NCBI GenBank assembly: GCA_963576735.1 | Contig: OY755171.1 | Coordinates: forward strand, 124,001 to 188,000 | From: Bedellia somnulentella | Lineage: Eukaryota > Arthropoda > Insecta > Lepidoptera > Bedelliidae | Reading direction: 5' to 3' | DNA length: 64,000 bases | Shown: positions 5,205-63,089 of the stretch, in pieces | Layout of the letters: each line of letters opens with the position of its first letter | How positions within the stretch are numbered: position 1 is the first letter of the stretch | The notes under the pieces: model-generated | Told to the model about the DNA's origin: nothing | Databases searched by the model: none | What the model saw: only the letters and a program-made list of their open reading frames with translations | Position numbers and translations under genes: made by a program

Positions 5205-5238
<34 letters not shown>

Positions 5239-7570: not shown

Positions 7571-7760
7571 TGAAAAGTAGATAAAAGTTAAATTTAGTTA
7601 CTTATGTTTCGGTCATACTCATTTTCATTTCTTCTGGAACGTCGATTTCATCTAATGTTTAAGGTTCCACTGGTATTTTCTTTTTCCTAGTACGCTTTAT
7701 AATTTGGCGTAAAGCATTTTTATTTGGTACACTGCATGCGCTGCTACTCGGTATTTGCGC

Positions 7761-9009: not shown

Positions 9010-9048
9010 ATGGGTGGTTTTTATACCAATTTTTGTTTAACTGCAATT
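9010..9048 (+). CDS. Exon 1: start and first half of signal peptide
   Basis: ATG in a strong context (A at -3, G at +4). Encodes [13 protein letters not shown] and ends in phase 0 at ATT|gtgagt. A possible upstream acceptor cttcccag ends at 9008. Confidence 0.8.
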
Positions 9049-12000: not shown

Positions 12001-15000
12001 TAAGTCCTTTGATTAAGGTGGAGATCTCGAGATTGTCTGTTTCAGCAAAAGCAAATGATTTGCATACGAGGCTAATCGGGACTTTCAGCTCAGGGCCTTG
12101 AAAAGAATTAGCTAGATTTGAGCCAATGTCAGTGAAATAATTATTAATTAAGTTTAAGGATCGCTGTGCATCATCGTTATTAGCTAGAAGTTCTGTCGCT
12201 GAGGATTTAGCCCTATTTAGGTTAGCGACCTCTTTAACAGCTTCCCAAATATGTTTGTTATTGTTGCCGGCTTTTTGTAAGAGATCTGTAAAATACGCCT
12301 TTTTAACATTTTTTAAAATTTTGGTGCTAAATGATCGGTATCTCGTGTAAGTAACTTTTAAGGTTTCATTTAACGGACTTTTTTTACATTTTATATATAA
12401 CCGGTCTCTGTTTCTAATAACTCGAAGAAGTCCTTGAGTAATCCACGGTTTCATTGGTCTTTTGCGACGGGGAAACACGTAAAAACCAACAAAAACTTGT
12501 GTAATGTTTATTGTGTAAATACTTTTGTAAAAAAATAACTTTGACAACCTAGCTTCAGGATCCGAGCCCAGAGAGTTATTAGTTTGATTTATATTTGTTA
12601 ATAAACAAATACAGGCATATTATGTACACAGTTAACTCCTCATTATTGACTTAAACTATGTCCATCATTACAATTAATCTGCAACTGCTTAATGAGTCGT
12701 ATATCTTGTTCAATAAATGTTTTATTTTCTTTTGATCCTTGTTCCTGTATTTAAATACAGCATACGAGTAACATAAATGTAGCGATTCAGATTATTTTTT
12801 TATGTTTGTTTTAGGTGATTTTCTCTTTACCAAATGCGATTAATTGTCGGGTAAGTAACTGACTTTTGCTTCCGTCACTATTTCCCAATCGTATATGGTT
12901 TGCTTGAAAAAAATATGCTAGCGAAAGTTATAGAATTAATAATGTATATGTCGAGTCGAGTCATTCGTATAATTTTGTGATGCATTATGAGACCCATCAC
13001 CAATAAGCTTTATTTTAAAAAAATTACACCACTCAAGTTCCAAATGTAATATGTATGTTATGTACTGAAGGGTATTATTTTTTATATTTTGATTCGGTTA
13101 AAAAAATCAATCTTTCTAGCATTCAAAATACATTGCCACTAATATTCTTGTCGTCTCTAGATATAGATACATAACATTGTGTCTCTGCTTGCTGCGGATA
13201 GACCGAGCTCTGGACCTTTTTATCTTTGTATACTTTTACTGTCATTATTTCATTTCATATGTTTAAGAAAGACTTTTGTTATTAATTTAATTAATTGATA
13301 GTCCAATGGGAAGAACAACCGCCCGTCAAAACAGACAGCCGTGAGTTCAAAGTCCGGGTCGGGCTGACACCAATTTGTATTCTCTAATGACAAATGTATG
13401 GTTAATTTATCATGGTTGTCAACGGTGAGAGAAAACGTCGTAAGGAAACCCACATGGCTAAGTTGTACTTAGTTACGTGACAGTGTATTCTTACCAAACG
13501 GCGATAGGCCTGCCCCCTATCACGTGAGTACACTGTCCAAGCAAAACGTGGGTACTCTGAACACCAGGTACGATGTCAGAAGTATTAGTAATTCAGCCAA
13601 CCCCTTCAAGGATGTACGGCTTAAACGCTTGAGTCTTGATTCATATTTTTTAAACATACATAACCTCTTGTCTAACGTATGTACATATGTGAGCATGTAT
13701 TGTCTTTGTCATTTTCGAATGTCAGATATAACATAAACATAAACGTTCACGCCGAATATCCCCGAAGGTTGGCAGAGGTACTAATACTTCTGAACATCAC
13801 GTGACTTTGTCACCTGGTGTTCGGAGTACCCACGTTTTGCATGGACAGTGTACTCACGTGATAGGGGGCAGGCCTATCGCCGTTTTGTACGAATACACTG
13901 TCACATGGCTAAGTACAACTTAGTCATGTGGGTTTCCTCATGATATTTTCCCTCACCGTTAACAAACATGATAAATTAACCACACATATGTCTTTAGAAA
14001 AGACAAATTGGTGTAGGCTCGACCCGGGATTCGAACACTAGTCGCTTGCACGTTAACCGGTGTTCTACCCATTGAGCTATCACGTCGTCAGATATAAATA
14101 AATGGAAAATGGCAATAGCATTCAAATATACACATACATACACATATTCACGGCCTTAAAAGGTTAGCCAGAGCTAGGGATTTAAAAATTCCTCAGCAAC
14201 TTTTGGAAGCTGCGTGGGGAAAGATGGTGAAATAACGGTTGTTAATGATGGGTCTCCAACCGCATCGCCCAAAAATCTCTTTAAAGCACAAGAATATTAT
14301 ATACATACATATACTCACGCCATTATTTCGCATTGAGGTAGGCAGTGACTATTGATCGCCACTTTGTACGATGCTGGCAAACCTCTCTAGCTTTGTTTAC
14401 ATCAATAAATCTTTTCATACAATATGCTCTTTTGTTCTTCATACTTGGGATGCCTGCCTTTTTGCGTACACCCTCTATTTGGTCTAAGTGTATCCTCTAT
14501 CTACCTTATATGGGTGAAACTCAATTGTATGATATTAATCAAATAAATGAAGCCCTGTTTGCCGCCTTTCCTATTTGAGTTGGTTACACACTTCGATCAT
14601 ATATACCAAAGATACACAAACAAAGCACGAAAAGCGGCCCGACCGAACAGTGCTTTTTTATATGGTAAGCACTGTTTCACTGACAGTCGCGCGCGTGCTA
14701 GATCTTGCAATAAATAATAGGTCTTAAGAAACTGTGGAAAGGTCGCTAATTGTAAAAAAAGAAATATTTAATTGTCAAACAGTCTTGTCATTCTCGCGGT
14801 CCACCTTTGTGAATTGATTTTTTATGGAATGCGGCATCTTTGGTTTATATGATCGAAGGTTACACAACAAACTTGAATGTTTGACATAAATCTTGACAGA
14901 AATTTATTACTTTCAATCTAGACAAAACTGGATATCAACGTTTAAAAATCTAAAAAAAATTTTTTTATTGTATGTAGTATACCCAAACCTATGACAATCA

Positions 15001-18000
15001 AATTATTTGAGGTATAATTTAAAATATACTAATAAATTTACATTTTCACGTTTTAGAATTGTGTAAGTTACCAATATTTTAAGATTATGTTTGGAATTAA
15101 AATTACTTTATGCACATCATAAATACAACATTTTTAAATTAAAAGGCTCAAATAAGTAGATACATTTGCTAGGAGATTTCACTTGAGATTAGTTTTTTAC
15201 TAACTTTTCCAATTATCATCTCTCAAAGGAGGCTGAGGAGTTTTTTCTTTTTTGAGAATTCTGATGTTTTGGTTACCCCTTTTTAATTTATAGCCGTGAG
15301 TATATGTTTGGTGTGGAAATTCTTTTATTTAATGAAACTAATATATTTTGGTATTAGTATCCTTTGGTATTTTCATGTACATATCTTCTTGTAAACTTAA
15401 GTTTTCGGTGTACCAACTTCTTATATTATTTTAACGATTTTAGAGATATAAAAAAAAAATGATTATATTTTTTAGATTATGGAGGTAAGTTTAAATATTT
15501 CAAAATATTTTGGATAAGTTTTTTAAAGGATTATAATATTATTAGGTTAATAATTGTTTTTGAAGATATTTAATTTTATATGATAACTAACAAAATTTTA
15601 AAATTTTCAGACATTTGTAAGTGTTATTTTTCTTCTTATCTCTTTATCTCAAGATGTAAATGCACGCCGCCAGATGGATTAATTTGTGTTGTGGACACAT
15701 CATCAACAATAATCCTGATTTCCACCACTTATTCAAAGTAGCTGAGGAATTTCAATCATAGTATATATAGTACTACACGAGTATACTATAAGCTATTGCT
15801 GTCACACACACTCACGGTTATAAATCCAGTAAAAGATAGCAAAGGCTTTCCATTAAACTTTAGCAGTTGTAACAGGAAAAGATGAAATTACATACACATA
15901 TATACATACATATATTCACGGCTATAAATCCCTAAAAGGGGTAGCCAGAGCTAAGGAATTAGAAATTCCTCAACCACTTTTGGAAAGTTATGTGGGGAAA
16001 GGATTTTTAAATAAAGGTTATTGGTGATAGGTCTCCAACCGCATCGCCCAAAAATACCGTTAGTCGCCTCTTACGTACACCCACCGGAAGAATAAATAGG
16101 GAAGAAAAGATGAAAATGTACGCAACATACAGGATATTGCTTTTTTACACTTGTAACCATAAAATACTTCACGTCAATGTTATTAAAATTTGAGAGTATT
16201 TTACGGAAAAACATGTCAAATAGATAAACATATTCTAGAAAGAAGTTTTGTTTATTATTTTTATAAATACATTATCATGCTTAGAGTTTATTATTCGAGT
16301 TAGTACATAGCTCAGTTAGAAGAGCGACGGAGCGTATACCCGGATGTCGCGGGTTCGAGTCCCGCTGGTAACGCAAATTTTTATTTGCTTAATTGATTAG
16401 TAATAGTCCCCACGTGATGTTTTCATGTAAAACAAAGCCTAATTATTGCTTCTATCTAATTACTTTAAGTCTCATACGCCCGATTTCTGAATTGAGTATT
16501 CCAGCTGAGGACAACTTAAGTATCGTTCTGTCGCATTGAAATCTTAACAACTGAATGAGACAAAACGATACTTAAGTCGTTCTCAGCTTGAATATTCAAT
16601 TCAGAAATTGGGCGTTAGACAAACATATTATTATATCAACTCAAGCTCAATAATAATTATATAAACATCGACATCTCACTCACAAACATACTTTGACAAA
16701 TATTATGAAATGCTACTAGCATTGCATTCATAGCTAACTAAGTTCATATAAATGTTTACAGGTCGCAAAAGTAAGTATTTAATTCTCATATAAACATCTC
16801 TTATGTACATTTCGCTTCGTCTGCACCCTTCATATGTATGTCAAATTTAATAATTTATATGTATATGTACCTAAAACCAGATAAAGTAACAAAAAGGTAT
16901 TCATAGGTTTGCTAATCAAAAAAGAAGATCAAAGGCATGATGAGTTTTGTAATTGTGAATTTAAGAGTTCGGGCTTATTTCCAAAATTTTCCAAACATTG
17001 CTTTTTTGTGATGGATGTCGTTTAGTTGTATGTAATAACTCGGCAACTTTCCCGACCCGTTTTTCGATCAGATAAAACTTCAAACAGGCTTTAGTGATGG
17101 TTTAGTGTAACAGTTTCATGTCATAAAGTTTTTAATTTATCGTTTCAGATAAATCGTGTAAGTAAAAATTCTGTTAAATGTTTCTTTTTAATATGGATGA
17201 TGAAAAATTAAAGAAATATGTGACTACATTAACTGAAACTGCTATATATATTACTAGCTGACCCGACAGACTTCGTACTGTCAAATTTGCTTATGAAAAA
17301 GCTTAAGGCGTTTTTTAAATTAATTTAATAAAACCTCAAAAATTGTAGCCTATGTGTTATTCTGATGTATAAGCTATAGCCTATGTGTTATTCTGATGTA
17401 TAAGCTATATTGTGGTAAAGTTTCATTCAAATCCATTCAGTAGTTTTTACGTGAAAGAGTAACGAACATCCACACATCCACACATCCATACTTACAAACT
17501 TTCGCCTTTATAATAGTAGTAGGATTTAGACCAAAAATATACGTCGAATGATTTTGTTTTAAATTTATTTTTTATAAGTTTATTCATATTTTTTTTAAAT
17601 AATTGTTCTTGAAAGACAAAACGCCCGTGGCCTGAGCCGTGGCCATATGGTGTTCAGTTTTATGGAGAAGGAGGACCTGTTTAGTATAAACTCTTTCCGA
17701 GAGAATCAAAAGCAGCGAAAAAAAACATTAGTCCCAAACTATTTTACAAATAACTAGTTAGATTTTACAATGTCGACCTATATTTTAAAGTGTGATTGGT
17801 ACTGTTAAGACCGTCAGCGATCCCCAAATGATGATAGCCACATTTCACATCCACACAGAGCTAGAGCTATGTCTGTCGAAATCTACACTTCCACATTCAG
17901 GAGCCCGATGATGGTTGTGTTGGATGTTCTGGAGTGGCGGCCACGGCTATACCACTTAGAAGGGGCAACCAAAGCTTCAGAAAAACTTCTCAATTTTGAC

Positions 18001-21000
18001 AATTTTAGAAGTTGAGTGGGGAAAAGACAGGGAAATAAAGGTTGTTGGTCCAACCGTTTAAACCCATTTACACAAAACCCTTAGGCTCCTCTTACAAACA
18101 CGTCCACGACAAGAAATAGGAAATAATTATTTTAAGCAACTCCTAAAAGTGTATGAAAAATTACCATTTGTTAGGCTACTTTTTTAGATGAAGGTGGAGT
18201 TTTCAATCTGCAACTGACTTTTAAACTTATTCAATTTAAGACTCAAATGAAATTCAATAGTATTTCTTGTTAATTTTCAGAGTCACAATGTAAGTATATG
18301 TCATCTTTTACTTGGGGTCACCATTGAACTAATATATTTGTACTTCGACAGATTAATAATATATTGCTGTATTTTGAAAACATTAAAGTATATCCGTAGC
18401 ATAAACTAAACCGTTGTTTATAGCCAGCAGTGATTAACGATTTGCGCATGATATTGTGATGCATGTTACAGTGGAGGTCCCAAATTAATGATTTTATAAG
18501 CTACTTAGATTGATCAATAATGGCGAGCGTCAATCAGCAATCATTTAGTATATTTATCGTGCCTAGCATCGTGCTAGTTTGTTTTCTAAACAATATCTTT
18601 TCCGCCAATAGCTAGCTACCATCAATTATCAACATTTGTAGAAATGTACAATTTCTTAGAAAAATTTCGATAGTCTTTCAGACTTGGCCAACGGATATAT
18701 TTGATTATTTTATTAATATTTTTAATTATTATCGTTTTTGTTAGTTATTATTTTATTTAAGTTTCAATTGTCATGCCTAATAATTTAATTTAAATTTTGA
18801 TTTCACAGAATAACATTTTTTAATACCGACTTAAAATTAATGTTATAACTATTGCTATTTCTAACTTACTTTGTAAATTCTATTTTTATTAGAATTCACT
18901 AAAATTTAATGTATGTAATTATCGAAATTGTATTTCATATGCTGACCTGTAATTGGTTTTAGGACCAGCTGTATATACCTGTTTCTATGTATGTGATATT
19001 TCTGTTCTTGAACTGTTGGTTGGCTTTAAATAAATAAATAAACCAGCGTTTTGCCCGCGACTAAGTCCGCGTGGACTACATTTTTGCATCTGGTTTACAT
19101 ACCAAATACAAGAACACCATATATCTTCTGTTCTTTTAGATTCATATTCCCGCGGGCGTTGAAATCCATACATATCATATCCCTTTGAAGAGGTAGCCAA
19201 AGCTAGGGGATTAGAAATTCCTCAGCAACTTTTGGAAGTTGCGTGGGGAAAAGATGGTGAAATAAAGGTTGTTAATGGGGCTCCAACCGTGCCGCCCAAA
19301 AGTCCCATAAAAGACCCAATACCGTTAGTCACCTTTTATGTACACCCACCGGAAGAAATGGGGTAGTGCTATTCTAAGCTGACAGTACACAGCAATAGAT
19401 ATAAAGATCATTGAGGCTTTTTACTTGATTATTGGGCGATGCAGTTGGAGACCCATTTGACTACCTTCAAATAACTAACTAGGTTAAGACAAATATTATG
19501 TACTTTTGAAAACCTAATAAATTTTTATTATTATTTTTTATTTTCCCCATTCAATTTCCATAAATGGATAAAGAATTACTATCTCTGAAGCTGTGGCTAC
19601 CCTTTTTTGGGATTTATTGCCAGTTTCAAATTTCTAGATACAGAAATGTTAAAAATCTATATACTATTTTCAATCTCTTAGGGGGTTCTAAAAAACCTTT
19701 TTAACTAAATAAAAGTTATGAATAAATTCTCAGATCTACCAAATGAATACGCAAAATTCATACAATATAATTTCAATTATCTTTATTCATACATATTCGC
19801 GTAGCTGAATGTGAAAAAGAAGGAATAGTGCTTCCTATTATTCTAAGCTAACACAAAAGCGAAAAGAAAAACGCAAAAATATTGTGATCCCCGAGATCCG
19901 AACCTGGGTCTTCCGTACAATTAGTATTAACGAAACGGTAAACCGCTACGCCACGAAGGCGTTAGAACACAACAGACAATATTATCCTAGTAACAACATT
20001 ATTATGTTTCAAATTTTTGATAAGCTATATATCCAGTAGTCTTACTATTGACAAACAATTAAATGGATATTTATTTTGACGAAAATGGATGAAACCCTTA
20101 TTTTTTCCTATAAGACTATTAATCCAGCGACATGATAGTCCAGTGGGTAAGAACACCCGCCCGAAAAACAGAAGGGCGAGAGTTCCAATCCTGGGATGGG
20201 CCTACACCAATTTGTCTTTTATAAAGTCATATGTGTGGTTAATTTATCATGGTTGCTAACGGTGAGGGAAAACATCGTGAGGAAACCCATATGGCTGAGT
20301 TGTACTTAGTCATGTGACAGTGTATTCGTACAAATCGGCGATAGGCCTGCCCCCTATCCCGTGAGTACACTGTCTAAGCAAAACGTGGGTACCTTCTCTG
20401 GAAACTAGATGGCGCTTGCCATGTGAGTTCAGGAGTATTGGTACCTCTGCCAACCCCTTCGGGGATAAAACGGCGTGAACGTTTATGTATATTCGTTTAT
20501 GTTTAAGACTATTAATGAAGAGTCTGATATAGTCGTTTGATGAAAAAAATAATCGTGTGAAAATGGGGAGCAAATATATTTTTTTATGCTCCTGTGGGAA
20601 CCCTCGTGAAATCCGGGATAAATGATCCTATATGTTGGCCCAGCGTATAAGCTACAGTCACACCGAATTTGATCCAGATCTGTTTGATAGAACTAGCGTG
20701 ATGACCGGACATACAGACAGACAGACAGACATTTTTTTCAAAAAGCGCAAATTTGGCTTTAGTATCGAAAATTAAACATATTCAACCGGTTGTAATTTTT
20801 TTTCTACCATGTACAATTTTGACCTCGGTACAGTCTTATTATAGTAAAGATAGAAGATAGATAGATTACACTTAATTCTTCGTTTATTGTATTTAAATGA
20901 CATTATTTTTTTCAGTTATATGTAAGTTATTAAATAATTAGAAATATTTGTGTCTATCGGACTCACTATCTCACATATTTAGAAAATAAGGCAACTACGT

Positions 21001-24000
21001 AATCTCTTTAAATTATTGATGGGTAAAGCTGTACGGATTAACAATGATACTTTATTTTTTATCTATACATAATTAAATATGAATTATTCTACATGGAAAA
21101 ATCTATATATAAAACCATTCTTAGTATAAACCGGTTGTATTGGTTACATACTCACGGCCAGGTAACCAATACACAGTAACAGTTTTCACGGCAACCAGGG
21201 CTAAGGAATTAGAATTTCCTCAGCCACTTTTGGAAATTGAATGGAGAAAATATGGTAAAATAAAGGTGATGGATCTCCAATCGCACCGCCCAAAAATTCA
21301 CTTAATAGCCCCAATAGTCACCTCTCACGTACAACCACCTGAAGAAATGGGTCAGTGCTATTCTAAGCCTTTTGTAAGTAAGCCTGTTACACTACACAGC
21401 TTTTGTATTTGGTCAGTACGTTTATATTATGAAGCAGAAACATTATTACAAAAAAATATATGAAATATTATTGGGCCTTTAGATAATACTCGTGTGATTA
21501 AAAACGCGTTTTTTTTTATTTTTTATTTGATAGCCTATGCATATAAGAAAACTGTAACAATAATTACTTGAAATATATACTTTGAAGGAACTTAGCATTA
21601 ATATATTATCTTTTTCAGTGCTTTACTTTATTAAATAATATATAAGTAGTGATTTGGTTAGCATTCATTATGGTTTGTAATATTTTTTTATTGATGAAAT
21701 TTTAGAATCAGGTAAATAAAATAAGTACAAATTATTATTAATCCTCAATTTATTTTAGGAAAAGATATGGTCCTAGTATTCAACTTGTTTTTGTGAAAAA
21801 CGGAAAACAAACTATTCGTACTATTTTCCACGTCCCGTACTGAGAACATTTAATAAATTTCATAATGATCTATGTAAACTTACTTACTTATAAGCTCTGT
21901 GTAACTATTTTCTTTTACAAGTCCCATGGCCAAAGAAAGAAGGCTTTTAAATTATTACCTCTTCTGTAATTGTTGTATAAGGTCAGATAGAATATATCAA
22001 TTAGCATTACAGTACATAAAATAATTGGAATAAGGTAAATCGGTTCATAAGCTTATCACTTTACAGAGATGTGTAAGTTATTATTTAATTTGTATTATTC
22101 ACATACACACAACGTTCCCACATAAATTAGTTAGAAGACGACCACAGAGGACACACCTGGATCAAATAGAGAGTGTACTCAAGAAGGCAGGCGTCCGAAG
22201 TATGAAGAATAAAAGGGCATGTATGAGAAGCTTGATGGGTGTAAATGAAGCTAGAGGTTTGCCAGGATCGTACTAAGAAGCGATCGATAGTCTCTGCCTA
22301 CCCTAAAAAGAAAAGTGGCGTGAGTATATATATGTACAGCAATCGCATAATCGTCATATCCAAATAAGTAGCATCATCAATTACTCAACTACTTTTAACT
22401 GGTGCTTTTAATTGAGAGTTTGGTAAGTGACAGTAAGAACATTCCAAATGTTCTTCCAAATCGTATTCACATTGTCGTATCCTATGGCACCCCATTCAGT
22501 TTACTACTACTTATTTCATCTTGAACACAGACCTAGGGAAGTGAAGTGAAGTTAGATTAATCTGATCCACTAGTTCTATGGGTCAAACTTCCCATGTAAT
22601 TTTTTCCCTCCCAAGACGAATTATTACTAGTTTATATAATCACTACAATCATACAATATATTAAATATAAGAAAAATGAATAAAACTATGATAAAGATAA
22701 ATATTATAACTAATAATTAACTTGTACGCTTTTCTTGAATAAACTATTTGTATTTGTATTATATCATAGCATTGTATCACCTAATTACACTGTCCAAGCA
22801 AAACGAGGGTACTATGAACACCAGGTGACAATGTCACGTGACGTTCAGAACTATTAGTACCTCTGCCAAACCTTCCGGGGGTATACGGCGTGAACGTTTA
22901 ATTCTTTCATTCTTGAGTCTATAATTAATTTTGTTAACTACATTGCAGTACGATGTAAGTTAAAACCAAACTTCATATACGTAACTATGATAAAATATTT
23001 TTTGCATGCATCTCAAGGTCTTAAATTAATATTTAATAACATATATTTTTAGTGGATAGTGAGTAACGCATAATTTATATTTAAAATTTACTATACAGTT
23101 TTGAAACTTAACAAAAAAATTGTATTACACTTTTCTTTACTAATACTTTCTGCGCAAAGCATATATTTGGAGTAAATTTATAATGAAGAATATAATTAAA
23201 TATCAGAAAGATACATACTGCACACTTTTTTATCAAAAGGTAGGTATGGCTTAATACTAGAACACTTAGTGACATTTCGATGCCACAAATTCCGAGAAAC
23301 AGCGGCGACGGCGACGAGCGATTAGGAGGTGATATTTAAGATAAATTTGAATTATTTTGTAGTTCCAGCTTCGAATGTTACTACCCATTTCTACCAAGTG
23401 TTGTAAGAGGCAACTACCTGTATTCAACTTTTTAAGTGGTTTTTGGGCGATGCGGTTGGACACCCATCACCAACAATACTTTATTTCTACCATCTTATCC
23501 CCTACCAACTTCCAAATGTGGCTGAGGAGTTTCTGGCTCTGAAGCTCTGGCTACACCTTTTTGGGATATTTGGCCGTGAGTATATGTATGTAGGAATGTA
23601 TGCTGTGGTCTAACATGTTTAAGAGTTGGAATGTTCATAAGATGTGCCACATTTGTGTGAACATTACATCATTTGTTGCAAATGTATTAATGAATGAGAA
23701 CAATAAAGTGCGAGCCAAACTTATTACTTGCTGCATACCAACTGCGCAAAATTATTAAATGATTTTTTTCAATTCATTTTCAGGAAGGAAATGTAAGTTA
23801 TCTTTTTTCAATAGATATATATATATACGGACATATACGGACATATTATACACAGATCAAGTTAGCCCCAAACTAAGTAAGACTTGTATTATGGGATACT
23901 AACTCAACGATATATTTAATATTATACAATACACATATAAATAACATCCAAGACTAAGAAACAACATTTACGCTCGTCACATAAATGATGCCCTCAGCGG

Positions 24001-27000
24001 GGATCGAACCCGCAACCTCCGGACCGAGAAGCTAGTCACCTATCCACTCAGCCACGGCTGTCGTCAAGCGTCAAGTCAATATAAGCAACTAGATTAAGGT
24101 AACCTGAAAGTTGTAATAATACTCGTAATGGGTGTTAATAAAGCGAGCGTCAAAGAACATACAAAGTTAGAAATAATAGCTTACACTAGTAAAAATGTTT
24201 GTGAAGGTTCTATGTGCATAGTGTATGAGTAACCACGTATTCTTTATTTGACCAACCAAGATATGTCAGTGGTTAGAAGTGCGCTTATCACGCAGACAGG
24301 CGTCGGTTCGATCCCCGAGTCGGGCCCACATCAAAGTTCATTTTCTTAAGTCATATGTGTAATTAATTTATCTTGGTGGTTGACAGTGAAAGAAAACATC
24401 GTGAGTAAATGACTAAATTGTTCTATATCATGTGACAGTGTAATCGCACAAAACGGCGATAGGCATGCGCTCTATCACGTGATTACACAGCCCAAGCCAA
24501 ACGCGGGTACTCTGAAAACCAGGTGACAATGTCAGGTGATTTTCAGAAGTATTGGTACCTCTGCCATAAACGTTTAAATCGGAGTTTTATTCATAAAACT
24601 CAAAAATCCTCAAGTAAATATTATTTAATTATCATTATTTATTAGCAATTTTTGGTCTTAACAGTATAAAAATACATGTTTTACTAACAGTCAGTCGTAC
24701 AACCGACATTTCATGTAACGCTGTTTATGTATGGGCAATACAAGTGATTGATCATTATATTTAACTGTGTGTTTTGTTCCAGAGTACAGTAAGTATCTGC
24801 TATTAACTTATGTTTAAATGTATTGTTTCTTCTGGAATGCAAGGGAACACTATAGGGATAAGCAAAATAATTTCCAAAGCTTTTAAATCTTTTTGTTCAT
24901 GAAAACCTCATGTGGGGATTATTACGAATAAATAAAGAAAAAGAAAAATTTCGACACAGGCGTGAATAGAACCCGCGACCTCGGGTATACGCCCCGGACG
25001 CTCTGCCAATTGAGCCACCGTGTCAATGGCTGCCAGCGCGAAATTCTTCTATCCTTTATTTCTATTACACGTTTAAGTATATCAATCAACTTCCAAAAGT
25101 GGCTGAGGAATTTCTCATTCCAAAGCTTTGGCTACCCCGATAAGGGATTTATAGCCGTGAGTATATGTATGCATGTATGTACGTTTAAGTAGTATTTGCG
25201 TTTCCTACCTCCGAATTTTTACTAATTCGGAAGGCCACTTGTCTATCATTTCAGATAGAATGCAAATGTTGAAATAGCCTTACTATCACATAATTTAAAT
25301 CTTTCTGTTCATGAAAACCTTATGTGGGGATTATTACTTATAAATAAAGAATAAATAAAGGAAAGCAAAATTTCGACACAGGCGGGAATAGAACCCGCGA
25401 CGTCGGGTATACGCCCCCGTCGCTCTGCCAATTGAGCTACCGTGTCGTTGAATATCGCGCTGGCAGCCATTGACACGGTAGCTCAATTAGCAGAGCGACG
25501 GGGGCGTATACCCGAGGTCGCGGGTTCGATTCCCGCCTGTGTCGAATTTATTTTTTCTTTATTTATTAACTTAAGTATCGTTCTGTCGCATTGAAATCTT
25601 AACAACAGAATGAGACAAAACGATACTTAAGTCATTCTCAGCTTGAACACTCAATTCAGAAATCGGGTTTAAGGCTTCCAACCTAAAATTAGCTGCCACT
25701 CATAAACGTAGGAAAATTTTACACAATACATTAGTCTATTATTATTAAATCTACTCATTTTATTGGCTTACGCCCGATTTCTAAATTGAATACTCCAGCA
25801 GAGAACAACTTAAGTATCGTTCTGTCGCATTAAAATCTTAACGACCGAATGAGACAAAACGATACTTAAGTCGTTCATAGCTTGAATACTCAATTCAGAA
25901 ACCGGGCGTTAGTGGGTAGAACACCGCTTATAATGCATACGATGAGGTTCAAATCCTGGGTCGAGCTTACATATTTTTTTCTTTTCTATAGACATAAGTG
26001 TGGTTCATTTATCATAGTTGTTAACGGTGAAGGAAATAAGAATTGTAAAGAAACCCACATACCTGACTTGTACTGAATTCTGTAATAGGGTATTCGTATC
26101 AAACGGCGATAGGCCTGCCCCCTATCACGTGAGTACACTTTTCAACCAAAACGTGGTACTCTGAACACCAGGTGATAATGCCACATGATTTTCAGAAGTA
26201 ATTATACCTGTGCCAACCCCTTCGGGGGTATACCGCGTGAAAGTTTGAGTTTATCAACTCAGACTAAGTCGCGGGCTATTACTAAAATATAGCTTGTGAA
26301 GATTTAGCTGCATATATTTTTATAATTGTTGCTAATTATTTATGAAAATATTAATGTTATTTTTCAATTATTTTACTACACTTATATTACACTTTTCAGG
26401 TTGACGTAAGTTGAAATCCTTTTTTTTATTGACTGTTTAGACTAAAATTAATCAAAGACATATTATGTTCAATTTACTGTAGAAGAATATTTGGAATTAC
26501 TTACGATAACTTTCCTTTTCCAGGGTTATGTGAGTATGATCAGTTCTATAGTGTGTGCTGTGTGATCAGCGATCACTAGATTGATGTATTGCATATAAAT
26601 AACGTAGAAAATATAGCTGTGTAGTGTCGGCTTAGAATAGCACTACCCCATTTCTTCCGGTGGGTGTACGTAAGAGATGACTAACGGTATTGGGGTTTTA
26701 TTGACTTTTTGGGCGATGCGGTTGGAGACCTATCACCAACAATCTTTCATCATCTTTTCCCCACGCAACTTCCAAAAGTGGCTGAAAAATTTCTAATTCC
26801 TTAGCTCTGGCTACCCCTTTAAGGGATTTATAGCCATGATTATATGTATGTATATAAAATACTTCTGAACTATAAGGATCGGAGAGGCTTACTTAAATAT
26901 TAATTATTTATATTTAACAAAGAATAGTCACCAACTAGTTGTAACTTCTTAACACTTAAGAGTACTGTTCGTGTATTGGATTCAACCTTTTTTTTAAATT

Positions 27001-30000
27001 TCCGAATCAGATCATTGTGTGTACCCATTTGTGTGATTCCATTAATGTAGTACACACAAAATAAAACAGTTTTACAATGTTTATTATACTATTTTACGGT
27101 ACAGAATAAACTTAAATTAATCTATGACTTTTAAATATTGGTATCAAAGAGAATTTAACAAATCATTTTCTGTGGACATTTAAAGCATATATTGCTGTTA
27201 TCATTATCCAACAAAACTTAGAAAAAAATATGTTTGTTATACGGGAGCTCTCCAAAATATATCATTCTTCAAAATATTTGGCCTATGATTTTAAAGTGAA
27301 AATAGAAGAAAATATACAGTTCTTAGGGCCAGTTTATTGATCCGTAGTTATAAATATAACCATTTGTTACATTGACGTGACATTGACTATAGTTAAATGT
27401 CTAACCAGTAGTCAAATCGTAAATCCATTTTGGTTCGATATTTGACATTAGTTACTCTAACCACGGGTCAAAAAATGCATTTTGCTGATATCTAACTAAT
27501 AGTTACGATATTTAACAAATTGTTGAGTTAACCACGGATCAAAAAACTGGCCCTTAGTATAGCTATTCAAGAGAACACACAAGAGAGAGAGAGAACTTAG
27601 TACAGCCTCGTGACAGGCAGACGAACTTACAACAAAATATTAGTAATAGCAATAAGGGCTCCTGTTTTAATATTTTTTGAAAATATTCTTTAAAAAGTGA
27701 GAATCATTATGGGATCTGCACCCTGCTGATTGTATTTATCATAAAAAACACCTTGTTGACTGAAACATAACTGTAAAGCAGAAATTAGACAAAGGGTACT
27801 ACGGCCTACGAGGATCACACTAACCAATCCTAAACTGTATTTTAAAATATTTTTGATTACTTTTGAGGCAGTCAATTGAGTCGAAGGTTGTTAAATTGAA
27901 GCTAACAAAATAGTGACAAAATACATATTTTTGGATAAAAAGAGAGGTATTTAATTGCTCCTCACATAACTCACAAATCTGCATAAATAGGCGATTTCGA
28001 TTGATCGTCAAGAACTTTCATCTTTTTCACATAAATATATTTTTAAAATTTCAGTGGCAAGTAAGTTGCATTTTATTTTTTTATATTCAATGTACGAGTT
28101 TGAGAAATAAAAAAATAAATAGTTGTATACCAGTACCAGTGAACTAAAAAAAGTGTATTAAACTCTAACGCCCGATTTCTGAATTGAGTATTCCAGCTGA
28201 TAACAACTTAAGTATCGTTCTGTCGCATTGAAATCTTGACAACTGAATGAGACAAAACGATACTTAAGTCGTTCTCAGCTTGAATACTCAATTCAGAAAC
28301 CGGGCGTAAGTGTACACAAATATACACACAGTGCAATTTTTATATTTTCATTGGTGTGGTAAATATATGTTTAAAATAAATATGTGGATAAACTGGCGTT
28401 TATCCACATATTTATTTTAAACATACAGGGTGTCCAGTAAATAAACGTCCAACCGTTAACCACCAATAGAGGACCCTGTGAAGTGCCCGGAAATGCAATT
28501 TTTTTTATTATAATAAACCTGGTTTAGAAATAAGCCAGGTTTAAGTTGTCCTCCTCTTGCTAACCAATTCTCCTCTAATCCTCAATTTTGGTAACCAAGC
28601 TGTTCTTTGCTTCATTAGGAGTCTAATAAAAAAAATATATGCCGATATCCCTATTTTTGCCCTCTTACCATAACAAAATAGCCCAAAGGAATTTAAAAAA
28701 ATAAAAAACAACTTAAATCTGGCTTATTTCTAAAATAAAAAAAATTGCATTTCCGGGCACTTCACAGGGTCCTCTATTGGTGGTTAACGGTTGGACGTTT
28801 ATTTACTGGACACACTGTATATTTACCACAACGGTTTGGCGTGAACGTTTGAGTGTTTCATATCCCGCAATAAAACCTACAAAATCTTCGACCATTTTAA
28901 GACCCCACTATGCACAGCAGTCCAAGAGGTAAGTAGTATAACTCTTTATGAGCCAGCCATAACTCTTGCTAGCAATCACTTGTGCATTTTTATATATTGC
29001 AGTTCTTTAAAACTTATTTTATCTATTTTTAAATAATAAGGTTAATAATTTCTTACTCGTACACTTAAGAAATTCATTTAGTTTAATAAATTTCCAGTAC
29101 GCTGTAAGTTATAATTTATATTAAAATTAACCTTCCATAATTTACTTGCGAATAAAGCATCCCGTAGAATTAATATTCTCACTTCCATGTTGAGCAGATG
29201 ACATGCCTTATGGCAAGCGATATATTTGACAAAACATTCAAGTTACTAAAAGGTGAGGTAAAACATCGTGAGGAAACCCACATGTAGAAAACGGCGATAG
29301 GCCTGCCCGCTATCACGCGGGTATCGAGCAAAGCGTGGTTATTCTAAGCACCAGTTGGCAATGTCACGTGATTTTCAGAAGTATAATACCTCTGACAACC
29401 CTTTCAGGGATACACGGTGTGAACACTGTGAACGTCTGAGTTTGAGATTCTAGTTACTAAAATTTGTTAATAACTTATTTAATATTTACAGGGCTATGTA
29501 AGTTATGCGAACTTTTTCAGGAATACATAAAGAAGGAAAAATTAACATGCTCTTAGTAAATTGACTTACCTCAAACATTCATTTAGATATGATCTGCTTT
29601 TTTATCGCTGACACTTCTGTAAAAACAATAAACTATAACCCGGAACATCATTACTCAAACGATTTACATTACTATGTCTACAGCAACCAATTAGTAATTC
29701 TAGTCTATAGGTATCCATATACATAAATGACTGAATATAAAGGATGGAATTAACGACGTTTTAATTACATTTACAGTTATAATATTCAATAGACATCACA
29801 CATACAGAATATATTTGGTTTAAATATCGTTAACAGATTATTTTTATGTTTCATTAATTTTACTGTTTGTTTGCAGTATCAAGTGAGTAAGATTAGGTCA
29901 TTTTCATATTTGTAGCTACTTCAAAATTGGGATAGATATGCATAATGTATTTAACATGTTTTTGAATTTATCAATACTTTTTCATTTATTTCAGTGGGAT

Positions 30001-36663: not shown

Positions 36664-36733
<70 letters not shown>

Positions 36734-39700: not shown

Positions 39701-42692
39701 AAGAAGCATGAAAGTAGAGTGAATGCAGTAGAAATGAGATCCCTCAGAAAAGTGTGTAATGTAAGGTTATGTGATCGTGTGAGGAATGATGTGATTCGTG
39801 AAAGGTGTGGTGTAAAAGATGATATTGTAAGAAAGATAGAAAAAGGAATGTTGAGATGGTTTGGGCACATAGAGAGGATGGATGACAGTAAATTGGTGAA
39901 AGAGATATATAGAGCCAATGTGGAAGGTAATGTTAGTAGAGGACGACCTCGGAGGACACATTTGGATCAAATAGAAAATGTGCTCAAAAAGGCAGGTGTC
40001 CGCAGTATGAAGAATAAAAGAGCATGTATGAAAAGATTGATGGATGTAAAGGAAGCCAGAGAGGTTTGCCAGGATCGTACAAGGTGGCGATCGATAGTCT
40101 CTGCCTACCCCAATGGGAACTAACGGCGTGAGAATATGTATGTATGTATGTATGTATGTAAATGCACAATGTATTTAAGATACTTAATTGGATAAGGATT
40201 AATACTATATTGCTTAAAATCGCTTCGTAAATAAGCCATTATTTCTCGTACAAAGTAAAGGATAAAAAATGGTTATTGTGGATTATTCCTAAGAGATAAA
40301 CATATACCATCACGGACGTTTTTGTAGACCTTTTTAAGTAGTACAATACTGTAGTATATTGTTTTGATCTATCTTGTAGGATTCAGTCAGCGTTTGCAAT
40401 GTGAACGCAAAAAATGTGTTTTTTTTACGACCTCAAATTAAAAACCTCAAAAATTGTAGCCTATGTGTTATTCTGATGTAAAAGCTATATAATTTAAATC
40501 TTTTTGTTCATGAAAACCTCATGTGGGGCTATTCTTTATTTATTACTATAGCCTATGTGTTATTTTGATGTATAAGCTATATTGTGGTAAAGTTTCATTC
40601 AAATCCATTCAGTAGTTTTTACGTGAAAGAGTCACAAACATCCATACATCCATACTTACAAACTTTAATCTCGACAATATCAACGATCCACAAAGGTGAA
40701 CACGCAAATCCACACTTAGGTAATTGCGAATATGGTAAAGAATTTTGAGTCGATAGAAGCAGTTACTTACTACTGAAAGAACATGGTTTTCGAACCGCAG
40801 TTCCCCGTCCATCAGTATGCCAAGGTTTCGTGCTTCTTCGACTCTTTCCAATGGTTGGTCCATAATGGCCATATCAGAAGTCTTCAGGGCCTCCAACGTA
40901 TTACAGATCTGAGTTCTGGTACCAAGAACCATGAATTTAGATTTCAATGGGTTTATAACAAGATAGTTTTACTCCGACCAAGTAACAATTTGATGAAGAT
41001 CAACATTCAGATTATTTACTGCATCAACGGTGTTTTTGGGATGAGTAGAAATATACAATTGGAGATCATCAGCATATAAATGAAATTTGCAGTTTTTTAT
41101 AATATAAGCCAAATCTGCGTTGTGTAGAAGAAATAGGAGTGGGCCTAATATTGATCCTTGGGGGACTCCCCGATCCAGTGCTCTTTCGGAAGAGGGATTC
41201 GTAACACCGTTCCTCTTACGCAACTCAACAAATTATTTTTGATCGGATAAATGACTATCAAACCGTACACACTGTACCGACATCAAATCCTTAATACGAC
41301 ATTTTGGATACGACTTTTTGCATGCAGAGCATTTAGGCGTGATGGTAAACAAGCTTAATCGATAAAACGGTCCAGAATTTCACGGAAAAAATGTAGACGG
41401 CGGTAGGCGCTGGCACGCACGATAACGATTTTATTATCAAATAATTTTTGAAATAATTTTGTCGGTGGGTGATTTAGAAAACCAAGTAAATCTAACTACC
41501 AAAAGATATTGATAAATTCTCAACTATCTTAATTATCCCTTGTTTTGTAAAACCACAAACACTACACGCAATAGCATGTTTAGAGATATGCACACTTATA
41601 CACTTTCTGACACTCATCTTGCACTGTAAATATTTTATAAACGAAAAACATTAGACACGCAATGACTCAACTCAACTAAACAACAACTATTGATTCAATA
41701 TTCAAAAATCAATTGCTGTTTTAATTAAAATTAGTATTGTTAAGCAATTTAGCGAAACCATTTCTTTAAATTATGTCTTTGAATTCTGTATATGTGTTAA
41801 AAAAACTTAAATCTTAAATATATCAATTATCAACACTCATCTTTAATGTTTTCTTATAGATGACGGTATGTAAAGTTTTTTTTTTAAAGTTACAAAGGAC
41901 AAAGATGTGATATTGTTAGTTAGTAAATGAAGTAACAAAGATGTGTTTTTATTCATAAATTGAGACTCTATAGTGGTAGCCAAAAATAACAAGGCGCTCG
42001 TAAAATAATTTGTGTGTAAAAACAATGAATTCTGTAAGTTTCAAACACTCAGCACAGATACAAAGAGATTAGGCAACGCAGTTCGAATAATTAAGATTTT
42101 CGAGTTTCAATCATTGCTAACTTAACTGCTTGCCGGTATAAAAAATGACATTTTGGGTTGAACAATTATGAAAAAATACATTAAATATTTTACCACCCGA
42201 ATCATTGTTTATTTACGGAGAGTTGGAAAGAAATTCAAACGTTATGATTTGACTTTATGTTACGGGATCACAAGTTTCATAAGATTTGGTACGTGTGTTT
42301 TCATAGCGGGTTTATATTTAGTTTTGTTTATTAGTAGTGTTTTATTGAATCTTTTGAATAATACTGCATGGCCAGGTCACCTAAAGTTTAAATAAGTTCT
42401 TTATTTGATAAATATTCGCAAAAAGCAACTAATGCTTGTGGTGGCAAACATGAGGATGATAACGAAAACTGTATAAAATATTTTGAATGCTAATGATTAA
42501 ACGCCTTTATGGTTTATATTTTAGCTTGACGATGTAAGTTTATTTTAATTTTAATAATCGCGTAGCGTGACACGGCAGAGGTGTTCTTACGTATATTTTA
42601 TAGTAACCTCTTTCATTGCAAGTAATGTGTTAAGACTTCTTATAAACGTATAAGATTATATTTTATAAACTGGAATAATAAACTGTTACTAA

Positions 42693-42724
<32 letters not shown>

Positions 42725-45700
42725 CTATAAGCCACATAATTACCATCTCAATATCCTTAACCTCTTAATATAAAAAAATACACAATCATTTGTAACTTTT
42801 ATTGTAATTTAATTTTCGCTAAATAAATTTTTATTGTAATTATTTCAGCGATATGTAAGTTTGAATTATATCTTTGGTTAAACGTGGTTTAAGGAGCTTT
42901 AAATTGAATAATTTTACCTTTTTAATCTCGCAATCAAAACGAGTGCTGATTTTGAGTCACACTTACACAAATCAGAATACTGCTCGTGGCCAGTTTAGCG
43001 AAACCAGTCTGGTGACACTTTCTCATTGTTTCTTTATTTCTTTGATAAACTTCATAATTCAAACATGTCATAATTTATGTTTAAGCTGTATAGTGTCAGC
43101 TTAGAATAACACTACCCCATTTTTACCCATGGGTGATCGTAAGAGGCGATTAAGGGTATAGGGGCTTTTTAAGTGATTTTTGGGCGAAGTGATTGGAGAC
43201 CCATCACCAAAAACATTTATTATCACCATCTTTTCTCCAATCAATTTCCTAAAGTGGCTGAGGAATTTCTCATTCCAAAGCTCTGGCTACCCCGTTAAGG
43301 GATTTATAGCCGTGAGTATATGTATGAATGTATGTAATAACCGTGATAACTCAGTGGGTAGAACACCGCTTATCATGATGTCGACGTGGATTCAAATCCC
43401 GGGTCGGGACTTTCTTATGTCATATGTGTGGTTAATTTATCATAGTTGTTAATGGTGAGGGAAAACATCGTGAGGAAACCCACATGCCTCAGATGTACTT
43501 TGTCATATGACACTGAATCCGTACAAAACGGCGATACGCCTTCCCCCTATCACGTGGGTACACTGTTCAAGCAAAACGTGGTTACACTGAACATCTAGGG
43601 CCAATGTCACGTGATTTTAAGAAATGTTAGTACCTCCACAAACCCCTTCGAGGATTACGGCGTGAGAGTTTGAGTTGAGATGCGTATAATTATGTCATAC
43701 AATTTATGATTCCATAATGACACTCTCAGTGATTGTTTTGAAATTCATGTGTTTCCACGGAGTACTAATGTTCTTATACATCCAATTTGGCTATAGATTT
43801 GATATAATTAAAATAATTGTCTGTGTAGAATCGGCTCAAAATAGCACTACCCCCATTTCTTCCGGTGGGTGTGCGTAAGAGGCGACTAACGGTATTGGGG
43901 CTTTTAAGAGTTTTTTGGGCGATGCGGTTGGAGACCCATCACAACAAACTTTATTTCACCATGGCTTCCCTCGCAACTTCCATGTGGCTGAGGAGTGTCT
44001 AGCTCTAAAGCTACCCATCTAAGGGATTTATAGCCGTGAGTATATTGTATATAATTAATATAAATTGGTGTAAGATAGTCCAGCGGTATGATCAAATATA
44101 TTAAATATTAACCTTCTTCTATAACGGAGAGGCGGGTGCTCCTAGACAAACCATAGCTTATGAATCAGCTATGAACGTAAATATTATACAAAGGTTACTT
44201 ACGTACTAAAATTTTTAATTAAATGATTATACTTGATTACATTTATAATCAAAATTTATTATTACAAGTAAAAAATATTCAGTTCTGTTGGTATCCGTAT
44301 ATATGTCACGAGTAGTTATATAGATAAATCGAAACTAGTATTTTAAATGCGATCCTTTAGTTAATCTGAGTATATGAATCATTTGTAAGTAGAGAACTTT
44401 CTTTAATGGCTTTGTTATTTTTTCAGTATGATGTAAGTATATTATTTATTTTATAATGGTACTGTTATATCTGAATGAACACAAAATTTATATTTTCCAT
44501 TTCATTCATGCCCAAAATAACGTTAAGATATCCTTCAACTTCTACAAGTAAAACAATATTCATATTACAATTATTACGGCATTTTTCGTAAATTTTCAGT
44601 ACGACGTAAGTTATATATTATCACTGTTTTAACAAGATTTTATGTTGTTGTTTAATTTGTTTGATTATTTTTATTGTTAAAATCGGCGATAGGCCTTATT
44701 TCTGATACGTGGGTACACTGTCCAAGCAAACCGTGGGTACTGTGGTCACCAGGTGACAATGTCACGTCCTGTTCAAAAATATTAGTAACTCTGCCACTGT
44801 ATTCAGTGATATACGGCGTAAACGTTTCTCACATGACTTAGTACAACTAATAAGAAATAACTTAGTCATGTTTAGGGTAGGTTTCCTCACGATGCTTTCC
44901 CTCACCGTTAACAACCAAGATAAATTAACCACACATATGGCTTAAAAAGAGACAAAAATCAAAGATGTTGGAATTTTGGTCACCGGAAAAACTTTACTGT
45001 AAAAGTCTAATATTATATTATCATTCTGTTTCCAGAAAGGAACTGTAAGTTTGGATTATATTTTATATTTGTTGAACGACATTGACGAAAGACATTACGA
45101 TAATAATTATTATATAACTTATCTTATTTTAGCACAAAGTAAGTATTTTTAGACTTTATTACCTAATGTATTGAGGACCCTAAGTATGTCTTGGCGACAC
45201 GTAGATAATTTAAAAGTGTATAGACTACGAAACCTACAAAAATCCGGTTAAAACATTTTTATTTATATTTAGGTACTTCTTGTTAGTCGTACTTGTACCT
45301 AAAGAACAAGTCTTGTAGAGGACTTTTTACAGGAAATTAATGGAAAATTCAGGTTTTTCATTAAATCTATAAAGCTACAAAAATGCATTAAAAGGAAACA
45401 AAATAAGAAATGACATAATGATTACGAAAGAAGCCTAGCGTTCTGAACGTTATTTATTCCACTAGTCTGAATTCAGATTCTGTGGCTCTCAGACGTCTTC
45501 ATTCAGACAAATGGAATAAGCTCTTTAAGAGCTCATTCCATTACACTTTGTCGTTGCTGAATTCAGACGTCCATCACAGTTACTGCCGCAGAAGCTTGTT
45601 ATTCCACTACACAAATTTCAGTAGCTGAATCATTCGAGAGCGCGCGATGAATGCAGGCGCTCTTTATCGGACTCTCTTATGAACAATTCCACTCTCATTC

Positions 45701-54700: not shown

Positions 54701-57700
54701 GCGAGGGATTTTCCAGGGCGATTGCCTGAGTCCAGTTTGGTTTTGCTTGGCCCTGAATCCTCTAAGTACACTCTTGGAGAATTCGGGGACGGGCTTTCAG
54801 TTTCGGAGAGGCGGACCACGCTTGCTTTACGCCCCCACGGCTGACAGATTGGCGGAGCTACTGACGATCACTAACGATTTCAGTGGTTCCGTCAAGATGG
54901 AGCTCGGGGTCGATAAGTGTGCGGTCATCCATGTTGAGAAGGGGCATGTCGTGCACTCTGATGGTGTCGATGTCGGCACCAATCATTTGAGGGCACTCTC
55001 CGAGGCTGAAACATACCGGTATCTGGGCATGTCACAAACCATCGGTGTGAAGGTGGCAGACGTGAAACAGGGTGTTTGCGAGGAGTTTTATGAACGCCTG
55101 AAAAGTGTGCTGAAAAGCTACTTGTCAGGCGTTAATAAGATCCGAGCCATTAACTCCTGGGTCATGCCTGTACTGATGTACACATTTGGCGTGCTCAGAT
55201 GGACTCAGACCGAACTCGACGCTCTGGACAGACGAGTCCGCACGATGATGACCTCTCATCGAATGCATCATCCGAGGTCGTCGGTTATGAGATTGTATAT
55301 CCCGCGGAAGTGTGGTGGTCGTGGCCTCTTGAGTGCCAAAACCATGCACAACCGCGAGGTATGCAACCTCAGAAACTATTTTTTGACGATGACGGATGAT
55401 AGTATTCGGGGAGAGGTGGTCGCTAGTGATAAAGGACTGACTCCCTTATCGTTGGCCTCACAGGATTGGCGAACCCCGGAGGTACTTAGCACCTCTGATC
55501 GGGAGTCCGTATGGAAAGAGAAGGAGCTGCACGGGAGGTTTTACAAGGTACTTCACGAACCTTTCGTGGACCGCAAAGCCTCCCTGCATTGGCTGCGTTT
55601 CGGGGACCTCTTTGGGGAAACCGAAGGTTTTGTCTGTGCAATACAAGACCAGGTTATCAAGACGCGGAACTATCGGAGATACATCCTAAAGGACGGTACC
55701 ACAGACGTTTGTCGAGCATGTGGCCGTCCCGTTGAGTCACTTAGGCATGTTATTTCCGGTTGTTCGGCTCTTGCTAACACTGAGTACTTGCACAGACACA
55801 ACCAAGCAGCCAAAATCCTGCATCAGGAGCTCGCTCTGAAATACGGACTCTTGCAACAGAGGCTGCCGTATTACAAGTATCTGCCGGAGCCAATCCTAGA
55901 AAATGACCGTGCCAAAATCTATTGGGACCGATCCGTTATCACGGACAGGACTATTCTAGCGAATAAGCCTGATATCGTGGTATGGGATCGGTCGCAGTCG
56001 ATGGTATTTCTAGTGGATGTCACTATCCCGCATGACGAGGGTCTCGTGAAAGCCGAAACCGAGAAGCGTCGGAAGTATCTCGATCTGGCTCACGAGATCA
56101 CCGACATGTGGGGTGTGACCTCGACTGAAATTATCCCAATTGTTTTGTCCGCGAACGGGTTAATTCCAACCAGCCTCGCGACCAACTTGAGGCGGTTGGA
56201 TTTCTGTGGCGTGTCGGTTCCAGCACAAATGCAGAAAGCGGTGCTGCTCGATACGGCTCGGATCGTCCGTCGGTTCTTGAACCTGACTCCCTGACCCCGA
56301 CCGACTGTGCTTTTGTCTGGGAACACCGCCTCTCCCATTTAAAATTTATATTTTCATTTTCGGCCATGGGAGAGGCGAGAAACAAAAATGTCTTTCGAAA
56401 TAATAATAATACATTATGTACTTAAGAACTCTTTCGTCTCAAACACACAGACATCTAAACTTTCACATTTATAATACTAATAGGATAACGGCACAGCAGT
56501 GACGGTTGCGAGCGCGCAATTAAATAATAAATGATTTGATATCTATAAGAAACTATATTATATTTTCAATACCGTTTTAGTTAATTCATAGATAACCACT
56601 ACAGTTATAATATAGATGAAATGTAAAATATTACAAAATTTTCAGAGTAACGTAAGTTTTTTACTATTCCATTTATACATTTGAATGTTTATGTTTCTGT
56701 AACAAATCTTGAGGCATCATAAACCTGCACTATAAGAGTATAGTTTTTAAAATTGCCTTTAATAACGTGAATTGTACTTCATTTTATGTTATTAAAGAGT
56801 GATTAAAAATACAAATATTAATTTCAAGTAATACATAATAGTACTTTGTTCCTCAAATACTCTTCTCACACACTTGCTCATGATGAAACGACATTTTATT
56901 ATGTGTTTAATATGTGTTATATTGTGCTGTAATAATGTGTGGTGTGTGCTATAATTTATAATGTGTTTTTTATATCAAATTTAAATTTATATTTCATAAA
57001 TTAAGAAGTTTTGTATACAAACAAAATACATGGATTCATACATTATATTCTTCCCTTCGTTTTTACTACTTTTAAATTTATTTGTTACTACTTTCCAGTG
57101 GAACGTAAGTAAACGAACGTACACCTCTGCCTGTTCTATTAATTATATTGTGGAACATCAAATCAAATAATTGTGTACTTTCTTATTAACTATTCTAATA
57201 CTCAAAATACTCACGGCTGTAAATCCCTAGAAGGGGTAGCCTGAACTTAAGAATTAGAACTCCTCAGCCGCTTTTAGAAATTAAATTAAATGGGAAACAG
57301 ATGGTATAATAAAGGTTGTTGGTGATGGGTTTCCAACCGCATCGCCCAAAAATCCCTTAAAAGTCCCAACACCCTAAGGCGCCTCTAAAGTACACTCACG
57401 GCGAGAAATGGGGCATATTTTTATTTATTTATTTATTCTAAGCCGACACTACACAGCGGATTCTATACATATTTTGTATTTGTGAATATGTTGTAAAAAA
57501 TATATGTCTTAGAATAAAAGTCCATGATTCGAATCAATTTGACTTAAAAATAGCGAATAAACATTATTGTTAAAAGTCTCCAATTAACTGCACTTTTCTG
57601 AAATTTATTGGTAGGTTAGTTTATATTTTACGTTAATTTTCTCAATATGATTTTCAGGGCTATGTAAGTTTTAACACTAATATTTAAGTGAATGATTATA

Positions 57701-63089: not shown

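Follow-up and report, generated by a model that had tools for sequence, protein, structure and literature searches.

Several described systems combine very short exons with unusual splicing. As set out in the sections of PMC10526429 on gene structure, schistosome MEGs, of which there are at least 35, have 10-20 exons of 6-81 bp, mostly 15 bp, and combine a signal peptide with short exons that are mostly multiples of three and with long introns. According to the account of aphid genes in PMC9168663, the bicycle homologue megacycle of M. sacchari spreads 118 exons over about 100 kb and encodes 2092 aa; it contains 15 repeats with intron positions in common and is single copy in most aphids studied. 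The same account gives internal exons of bicycle genes as almost all phase 2 and describes megacycle itself as having no obvious CYC motifs. Drosophila ratchet points, as characterized in PMC8605326, juxtapose an acceptor and a strong donor in the stepwise removal of long introns, and their content is absent from the mRNA. The smallest constitutive exon known earlier was 6 nt, to which a 2015 paper adds a single-nucleotide exon (PMC4674806); single exons of such size can thus be spliced.

Here, we analyze a 64-kb stretch of moth DNA (the window, C1:124001-188000, C1 being the numbering of contig OY755171.1 in an assembly of 549 Mb and 486 contigs), together with 30 kb upstream and 170 kb downstream. 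Read as a whole, the sequence makes it very probable that the locus is one gene, whose exons would be joined stepwise into the mRNA of a secreted repeat protein. Micro-exon genes are already known; what looks new is the predominance of exons of two or three codons. A search of open-licence papers, bioRxiv excluded, found no report of an insect gene composed chiefly of exons of 6-9 nt.

A one-stranded array of 6- and 9-nt intervals

In the window, the pattern AG-N6-GTAAGT occurs 28 times on the + strand and never on the - strand, compared with a mean of 1.86 and a maximum of 6 in 100 shuffles. Under a more general rule, which asks for a pyrimidine tract and YAG, then 6 or 9 nt and GTRAGT, 37 intervals lie on the + strand and none on the - strand, with a mean of 0.62 and a maximum of 3 in 60 order-1 Markov resamples. 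When lengths from 1 to 45 nt are admitted under this rule, the + strand spectrum of the window peaks at 6 nt (28) and 9 nt (9) only, each other length being represented by 0-2 intervals. The preliminary description had reported 43 intervals of 6 or 9 nt, all on one strand and mostly with GTAAGT donors. The array, its strand bias and its donors (GTAAGT in 36 of the 40 intervals that we accept in the window, Table 1) all stand, but not the exact count; two candidate intervals that lie in repeats were dropped from ours.

Table 1. Exons of the gene model that lie in the window, with their residues (window coordinates)
Feature	Position	Strand	Remarks
Exon 1, 13 residues, signal peptide start (predicted)	9010..9048	+	ATG to GTGAGT donor
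Exon 2, 12 residues, end of predicted signal peptide	12815..12850	+	acceptor 10.8, donor 10.9
Micro-exon NC	15057..15062	+	
Micro-exon IME	15476..15484	+	
Micro-exon TF	15611..15616	+	
Micro-exon VAK	16762..16770	+	
Micro-exon INR	17149..17157	+	
Micro-exon SHN	18281..18289	+	
Micro-exon LY	20916..20921	+	
Micro-exon RC	22067..22072	+	
Micro-exon SL, doubtful	22417..22422	+	weak acceptor 3.8
Micro-exon YD	22949..22954	+	
Micro-exon WI	23053..23058	+	
Micro-exon EGN, opens aligned repeat block	23784..23792	+	exon alignment
Micro-exon ST	24783..24788	+	exon alignment
Micro-exon VD, V-G-W triplet 1	26400..26405	+	
Micro-exon GY, V-G-W triplet 1	26524..26529	+	
Micro-exon WQ, V-G-W triplet 1	28055..28060	+	
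Micro-exon YA	29098..29103	+	exon alignment
Micro-exon GY	29492..29497	+	exon alignment
Micro-exon YQ	29877..29882	+	exon alignment
Micro-exon WD	29995..30000	+	exon alignment
Micro-exon IY, overlaps sequence that recurs once elsewhere in the span	31051..31056	+	
Micro-exon SR	32087..32092	+	
Micro-exon KK	32709..32714	+	exon alignment
Micro-exon VRD	33049..33057	+	
Micro-exon FF	34160..34165	+	exon alignment
Micro-exon PDP	36522..36530	+	
Micro-exon KIR	37616..37624	+	exon alignment
Micro-exon WR	38018..38023	+	exon alignment
Micro-exon LDD	42525..42533	+	exon alignment
Micro-exon RY	42849..42854	+	exon alignment
Micro-exon YD	44427..44432	+	exon alignment
Micro-exon YD	44600..44605	+	exon alignment
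Micro-exon KGT, opens next repeat block	45036..45044	+	exon alignment
Micro-exon HK	45133..45138	+	exon alignment
Micro-exon SN	56646..56651	+	exon alignment
Micro-exon WN	57099..57104	+	exon alignment
Micro-exon GY	57658..57663	+	exon alignment
Micro-exon YV, V-G-W triplet 2	62191..62196	+	
Micro-exon GY, V-G-W triplet 2	62343..62348	+	
Micro-exon WP, V-G-W triplet 2	63084..63089	+	weak acceptor 2.9; backed by repeat position

Among the rejected candidates, PF (21368) and KPG (28297, with a sister copy at 25899) sit inside repeats, and the interval at 52168 contains a stop. Also left out of the model were the intervals at 21706 (NQ), 41860, 45273, 64877 and 64996, a 72-nt interval at C1:191682, the one at C1:198563 and other weak-scoring intervals.

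The array overruns the window by some 92 kb, to about C1:280200. Acceptor and donor profiles trained on 41 window intervals, a few of which were later excluded as repeats, detect at score 16 over C1:133010-280200 81 intervals of 6 or 9 nt on the + strand (including one repeat-borne interval, 28297) and none on the - strand; the same scan of the flanks (117 kb) gives 0 on the + strand and 1 on the - strand. Out of sample, these window-trained profiles yield, at a score of at least 18 over C1:188000-284000, 38 intervals of 6 or 9 nt, and the spectrum of lengths up to 60 contains 28 intervals of 6 nt, 10 of 9 nt and 7 of 18 nt, with at most 3 at any other length. At score 15, intervals of 6 or 9 nt reach C1:278 kb, interspersed from C1:231 kb with intervals of 18-24 nt, and from there up to C1:358 kb the + strand has no further one. 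The micro-exon array is well above chance, and the gene structure is very unusual. On the sequence evidence, the array is almost certainly a real gene, predicted to be protein-coding.

The proposal of a gene family, also part of the preliminary description, found no support in two genome-wide patterns. Across the 549 Mb, TTTCAGTN5GTAAGT has 33 matches, 11 of them in this gene, and TTTCAGSN5GTAAGT has 39, with 10 here; these two patterns, which take in only 6-nt exons beginning with T, C or G, thus place 21 of 72 matches at this locus, and the other 51 are single, with no two within 200 kb and no second cluster. The looser YYYYYYYAGN6GTAAGT has 113 matches genome-wide against 133 for its reversed control, so that alone it carries no genome-wide signal. 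A second interval was found neither within 10 kb of two scattered sites with the 6-mers of exons LY and NC nor in five further 3-kb loci from the looser pattern. When a 2.1-kb piece of the gene was compared with the genome, the sole full-length match was the piece itself, and the other 131 matches were repeats or parts of it.

Gene model, reading frame and repeats of the predicted protein

The model comprises 103 exons over about 147 kb of the + strand and gives 322 residues as read; the earlier figure of well over 54 kb for about 120 residues holds as to the span but is too small. Its 101 internal exons include 64 of 6 nt, 21 of 9 nt and one of 3 nt, the rest measuring 12-36 nt, so that 86 are no longer than 9 nt (3-9 nt). 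Introns have a median of 789 nt, a minimum of 79 and a maximum of 11,507 (here, as in the phase-stop and composition counts below, the later-dropped interval PF at 21368 is still included). The weaker-site exons, with scores of 13-16, are SL, WP, FV, WD (C1:209070), EV and IREP. The 3-nt interval GAA at C1:204540, whose sites are very good (score 27), is a possible single-codon exon; GAA and the next 6-nt exon, DT, seem to stand where the neighboring block has the 9-nt KGT.

The first and last exons of the model are uncertain. The last begins at C1:280118, with a stop at C1:280181 and an AATAAA at C1:280354. For exon 1, a stretch of 18.7 kb offers five candidates that run from an ATG to a donor; the one chosen has the best donor of the five and the third-ranking hydrophobicity, and the signal peptide was judged by eye and by hydrophobicity score. 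The leader proposed in the preliminary description is plausible, with good splice sites at exon 2, but less secure at exon 1: from their sequence, exons 1 and 2 are predicted to encode a plausible signal peptide at the 5' end of the array.

To read the frame without circularity, we rely on a set of intervals collected blind to stops. Its 87 intervals of 6 or 9 nt in phase 0 (score of at least 14; 41 from the window part and 46 from outside) contain 0 stops in 196 codons, in agreement with the earlier claim of an open leader-set phase, whereas AG/GT-bounded intervals on the opposite strand have stops at 8.3% of 375 codons. Among full codons of the modeled exons, stops number 5 of 188 in phase 1, 28 of 188 in phase 2 and 0 of 290 in phase 0, but modeled exons were listed only as multiples of three and without phase-0 stops, so that only the stop-blind count is a test, and phase 0 for every internal exon is in part built in by the listing. 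A free chaining of intervals of any length went through other phases at longer intervals, in part through transposon pieces, and this model was discarded. The aromatic-rich product that had been claimed is borne out by composition: Tyr accounts for 25 of 193 residues against 2.3% in the opposite-strand background (P 3.5e-12), and, against the same background, Asp (20/193, P 3.4e-9) and Trp (10/193, P 2e-4) are enriched as well.

The predicted protein would consist of four, perhaps five, aromatic-rich blocks followed by a Thr/Lys-rich tail. The 243 residues from exon 2 to the tail contain 28 Tyr, 13 Trp and 10 Phe, and the last 54 residues contain 25 Thr and 12 Lys. The product is likely to be secreted; its leader and Thr-rich tail would suit an extracellular protein made by a gland or an epithelium and possibly O-glycosylated.

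Internal repeats emerge when each exon is treated as a unit of alignment. Two consecutive blocks of about twenty exons each match exon by exon, EGN-ST-VD-GY ... KIR-WR-LDD-RY-YD-YD pairing with KGT-HK-SN-WN-GY ... KIK-FK-IDR-KF-YD-YD, with a score of 81 compared with a mean of 36.7 and a maximum of 75 under shuffling of exon order (0 of 300 shuffles reach it). There are four copies of a triplet in which an exon with V is followed by G-x and then by W-x (VD/GY/WQ, YV/GY/WP, FV/GH/WD and LV/GE/WL), a number that none of 20,000 shuffles reproduces, the pattern having been picked post hoc; the recurrence also strengthens the case for WP, FV and WD, which are among the weaker exons. Paired exons are identical at 67 of 111 bases and their flanks at 390 of 1275 and 424 of 1275, the pairs having been selected by the alignment and the flanks being unselected. 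Aligned residue by residue, five blocks cut by hand agree poorly outside the V-G-W motif (mean column identity 31%, with a single invariant column), so that the count of four or five blocks is a judgment by eye. The intron flanks of paired exons show no likeness, the flank matches found being neighboring exons or repeats, and the blocks are therefore probably old. Because the blocks have exon boundaries in common, fragmentation into micro-exons likely preceded the block duplication. Hemopexin repeats were considered as a possible counterpart of the blocks.

A protein database search, which needs shared 5-residue words, returned no relative of the predicted protein. Since the database includes many lepidopteran proteins, the missing relative says more than an empty database would, although the limits of short-word matching and a lack of micro-exon annotation would account for it no less well than true absence. 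The one Pfam hit was Dicty_REP, at E 4 and in the low-complexity tail; PDB sequences gave no match, and a protein search of the moth's own genome, run without a positive control, found no intron-poor copy.

Splice sites, a proposed stepwise mechanism and its alternatives

The splice sites of the model are mostly strong and uniform at the donor. Across the 101 internal exons, 84 donors are GTAAGT and 10 are GTGAGT (94/101 GTRAGT). A G at the last exon base, present at most insect donors, is found in only 10 of these 101 exons, and is more frequent at the deviating donors (3/7) than at GTRAGT donors (7/94; P 0.02), which hints at compensation. In a scan for branch-point and intronic motifs, upstream CTAAT and TGTTT and downstream T-runs were somewhat commoner than in random intron pieces, with nothing decisive. 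Zero-length ratchet points (juxtaposed AG|GT) number 0 on the + strand of the gene span and 1 on the - strand, so that the idea of a ratchet rests on the micro-exons themselves.

An exon of 6 nt offers scant space for cross-exon recognition, and each 3' splice site may therefore act, together with the GTAAGT beside it, as a ratchet. The growing upstream exon would be spliced to the next 3' splice site, retaining two or three codons, and the fresh, near-perfect GTAAGT donor would then serve the following step; the exons would in this way be joined successively, 5' to 3', into one mRNA for a secreted repeat protein. By analogy with the Drosophila ratchet points (PMC8605326), such stepwise splicing seems the simplest mechanism, and we lean towards it.

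The gene may be constitutive, encode one protein and bear an extreme intron load, its tiny exons being a relic of old intron gain and block duplication without a role of their own. We give this reading about an even chance: the boundaries common to the blocks, which suggest that fragmentation predates duplication, and the uniformly strong splice sites both agree with it, and the regular spacing of boundaries at two or three codons is what it leaves unexplained by itself.

A less probable reading holds that the gene is combinatorial, its frame-neutral micro-exons being variously included or skipped to give many secreted variants, as argued for schistosome MEGs. Since all modeled internal exons are frame-neutral, skipping any one would yield a variant rather than a null; the multiples of three agree, for 6 and 9 nt, with the blind spectra, and acceptor strength ranges from 2.9 (WP) to above 17. 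The discussion of MEGs in PMC10526429 likewise ties micro-exons to alternative splicing. The mostly uniform strong sites (84/101 GTAAGT) nevertheless fit constitutive inclusion, and exon order and identity are kept in two blocks, as befits a defined protein. Routine alternative inclusion of exons is in our view less likely than not, and the fuller picture, in which about a hundred dipeptide and tripeptide cassettes serve as coding ratchet points and one moth locus makes combinatorial secreted aromatic proteins, is doubtful to the same degree.

Decay is far less credible. A once-working micro-exon gene, now an untranscribed pseudogene, would suit the repeat-filled introns (of the 148,000 bases of the span, 61,723 recur elsewhere within it), yet the stop-blind set has no in-frame stop and nearly all donors keep GTRAGT, sites whose quick loss is expected under decay; we consider this very improbable. 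We give marginally less credence still to a recursive-splicing relay in which the intervals are stepping stones lost from the mature RNA and their codons incidental: acceptor and donor do stand nearly back to back, as at the Drosophila ratchet points treated in PMC8605326, but the absence of stops in 196 codons, the residue bias and the protein-level repeats favor translation. Chance, or a transposon family bearing AG-6nt-GTAAGT, would account for the two window candidates in repeats (21368 and 28297) but is practically negligible, being contradicted by the shuffles, the minus strand and the flanks, and by the remainder of the genome as far as two patterns are concerned. Of the 102 internal exons then modeled, moreover, only 3 overlap sequence that recurs within the span, and one of these was dropped.

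If the exons are spliced into one mRNA as predicted, the locus would be a natural test of the spliceosome on dozens of consecutive exons too short for cross-exon recognition, and of whether signals in the exon can be dispensed with when the intronic part of the donor is strong. The gene would, moreover, represent a class hardly visible to standard annotation, which ordinary gene finders would likely miss. It would also mean that an architecture described for secreted proteins of flatworms and aphids likely arose independently in Lepidoptera.

Genomic setting and comparison with known micro-exon systems

The first recognizable downstream neighbor is a juvenile hormone epoxide hydrolase-like gene at C1:304300-309140 on the + strand, a potential synteny anchor. 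Its best named matches are all lepidopteran, Eumeta japonica (45% identity) coming first and Leguminivora, Choristoneura, Cydia and Plutella next, and it also matches PDB 4qla, a juvenile hormone epoxide hydrolase. Upstream of the gene, C1:94001-123500 and window positions 1-8100 are dense in frames that look retrotransposon- or transposase-like, and this stretch near the start of C1 is possibly subtelomeric. Reverse-transcriptase-like frames, again by their look, form two neighboring pieces within intron 1 (window 10481-12619, - strand). The longest intron, of 11.5 kb (45139-56645), holds transposase- or retrotransposon-like frames, likewise judged by look, at 50132-51013 (-) and 53422-56294 (+), and window 45937-46198 is a tandem array of 4.2 copies of a 63-base unit. 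Short repeats lie at window 28165-28312 and 28419-28825; the latter has at least 39 other genome copies of 96-99% identity among 40 candidates scored, and is therefore probably a young family.

Structurally, schistosome MEGs and the aphid megacycle appear to be the nearest known systems. With megacycle, as portrayed in PMC9168663, the locus has in common its many micro-exons, internal repeats with matching intron positions and, as far as searched, a single copy. It differs in belonging to another insect order and in having about 3 residues per exon, against about 18 in megacycle by our division of the published figures. The exons here are phase 0 as modeled, unlike the phase 2 given there for bicycle genes, and reading them in phase 2 meets 28 stops in 188 codons; the CYC motif is absent from the 322-residue model. 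With schistosome MEGs, as outlined in PMC10526429, it has in common short multiple-of-three exons, 6-bp exons among them, and long introns (median 789 nt here), but it has about 100 exons, 6 nt is the commonest size, and one gene was found. Because exon size does not fit a MEG, exon phase does not fit a bicycle gene, and a sequence relation was not found, we file the gene as neither. Like the Drosophila ratchet points of PMC8605326, its acceptors and strong donors are almost adjacent, but the 6-9 nt between them are readable as codons. And whereas the smallest exons known, in the cases presented in PMC4674806, are lone exons in otherwise ordinary genes, here dozens form an array.
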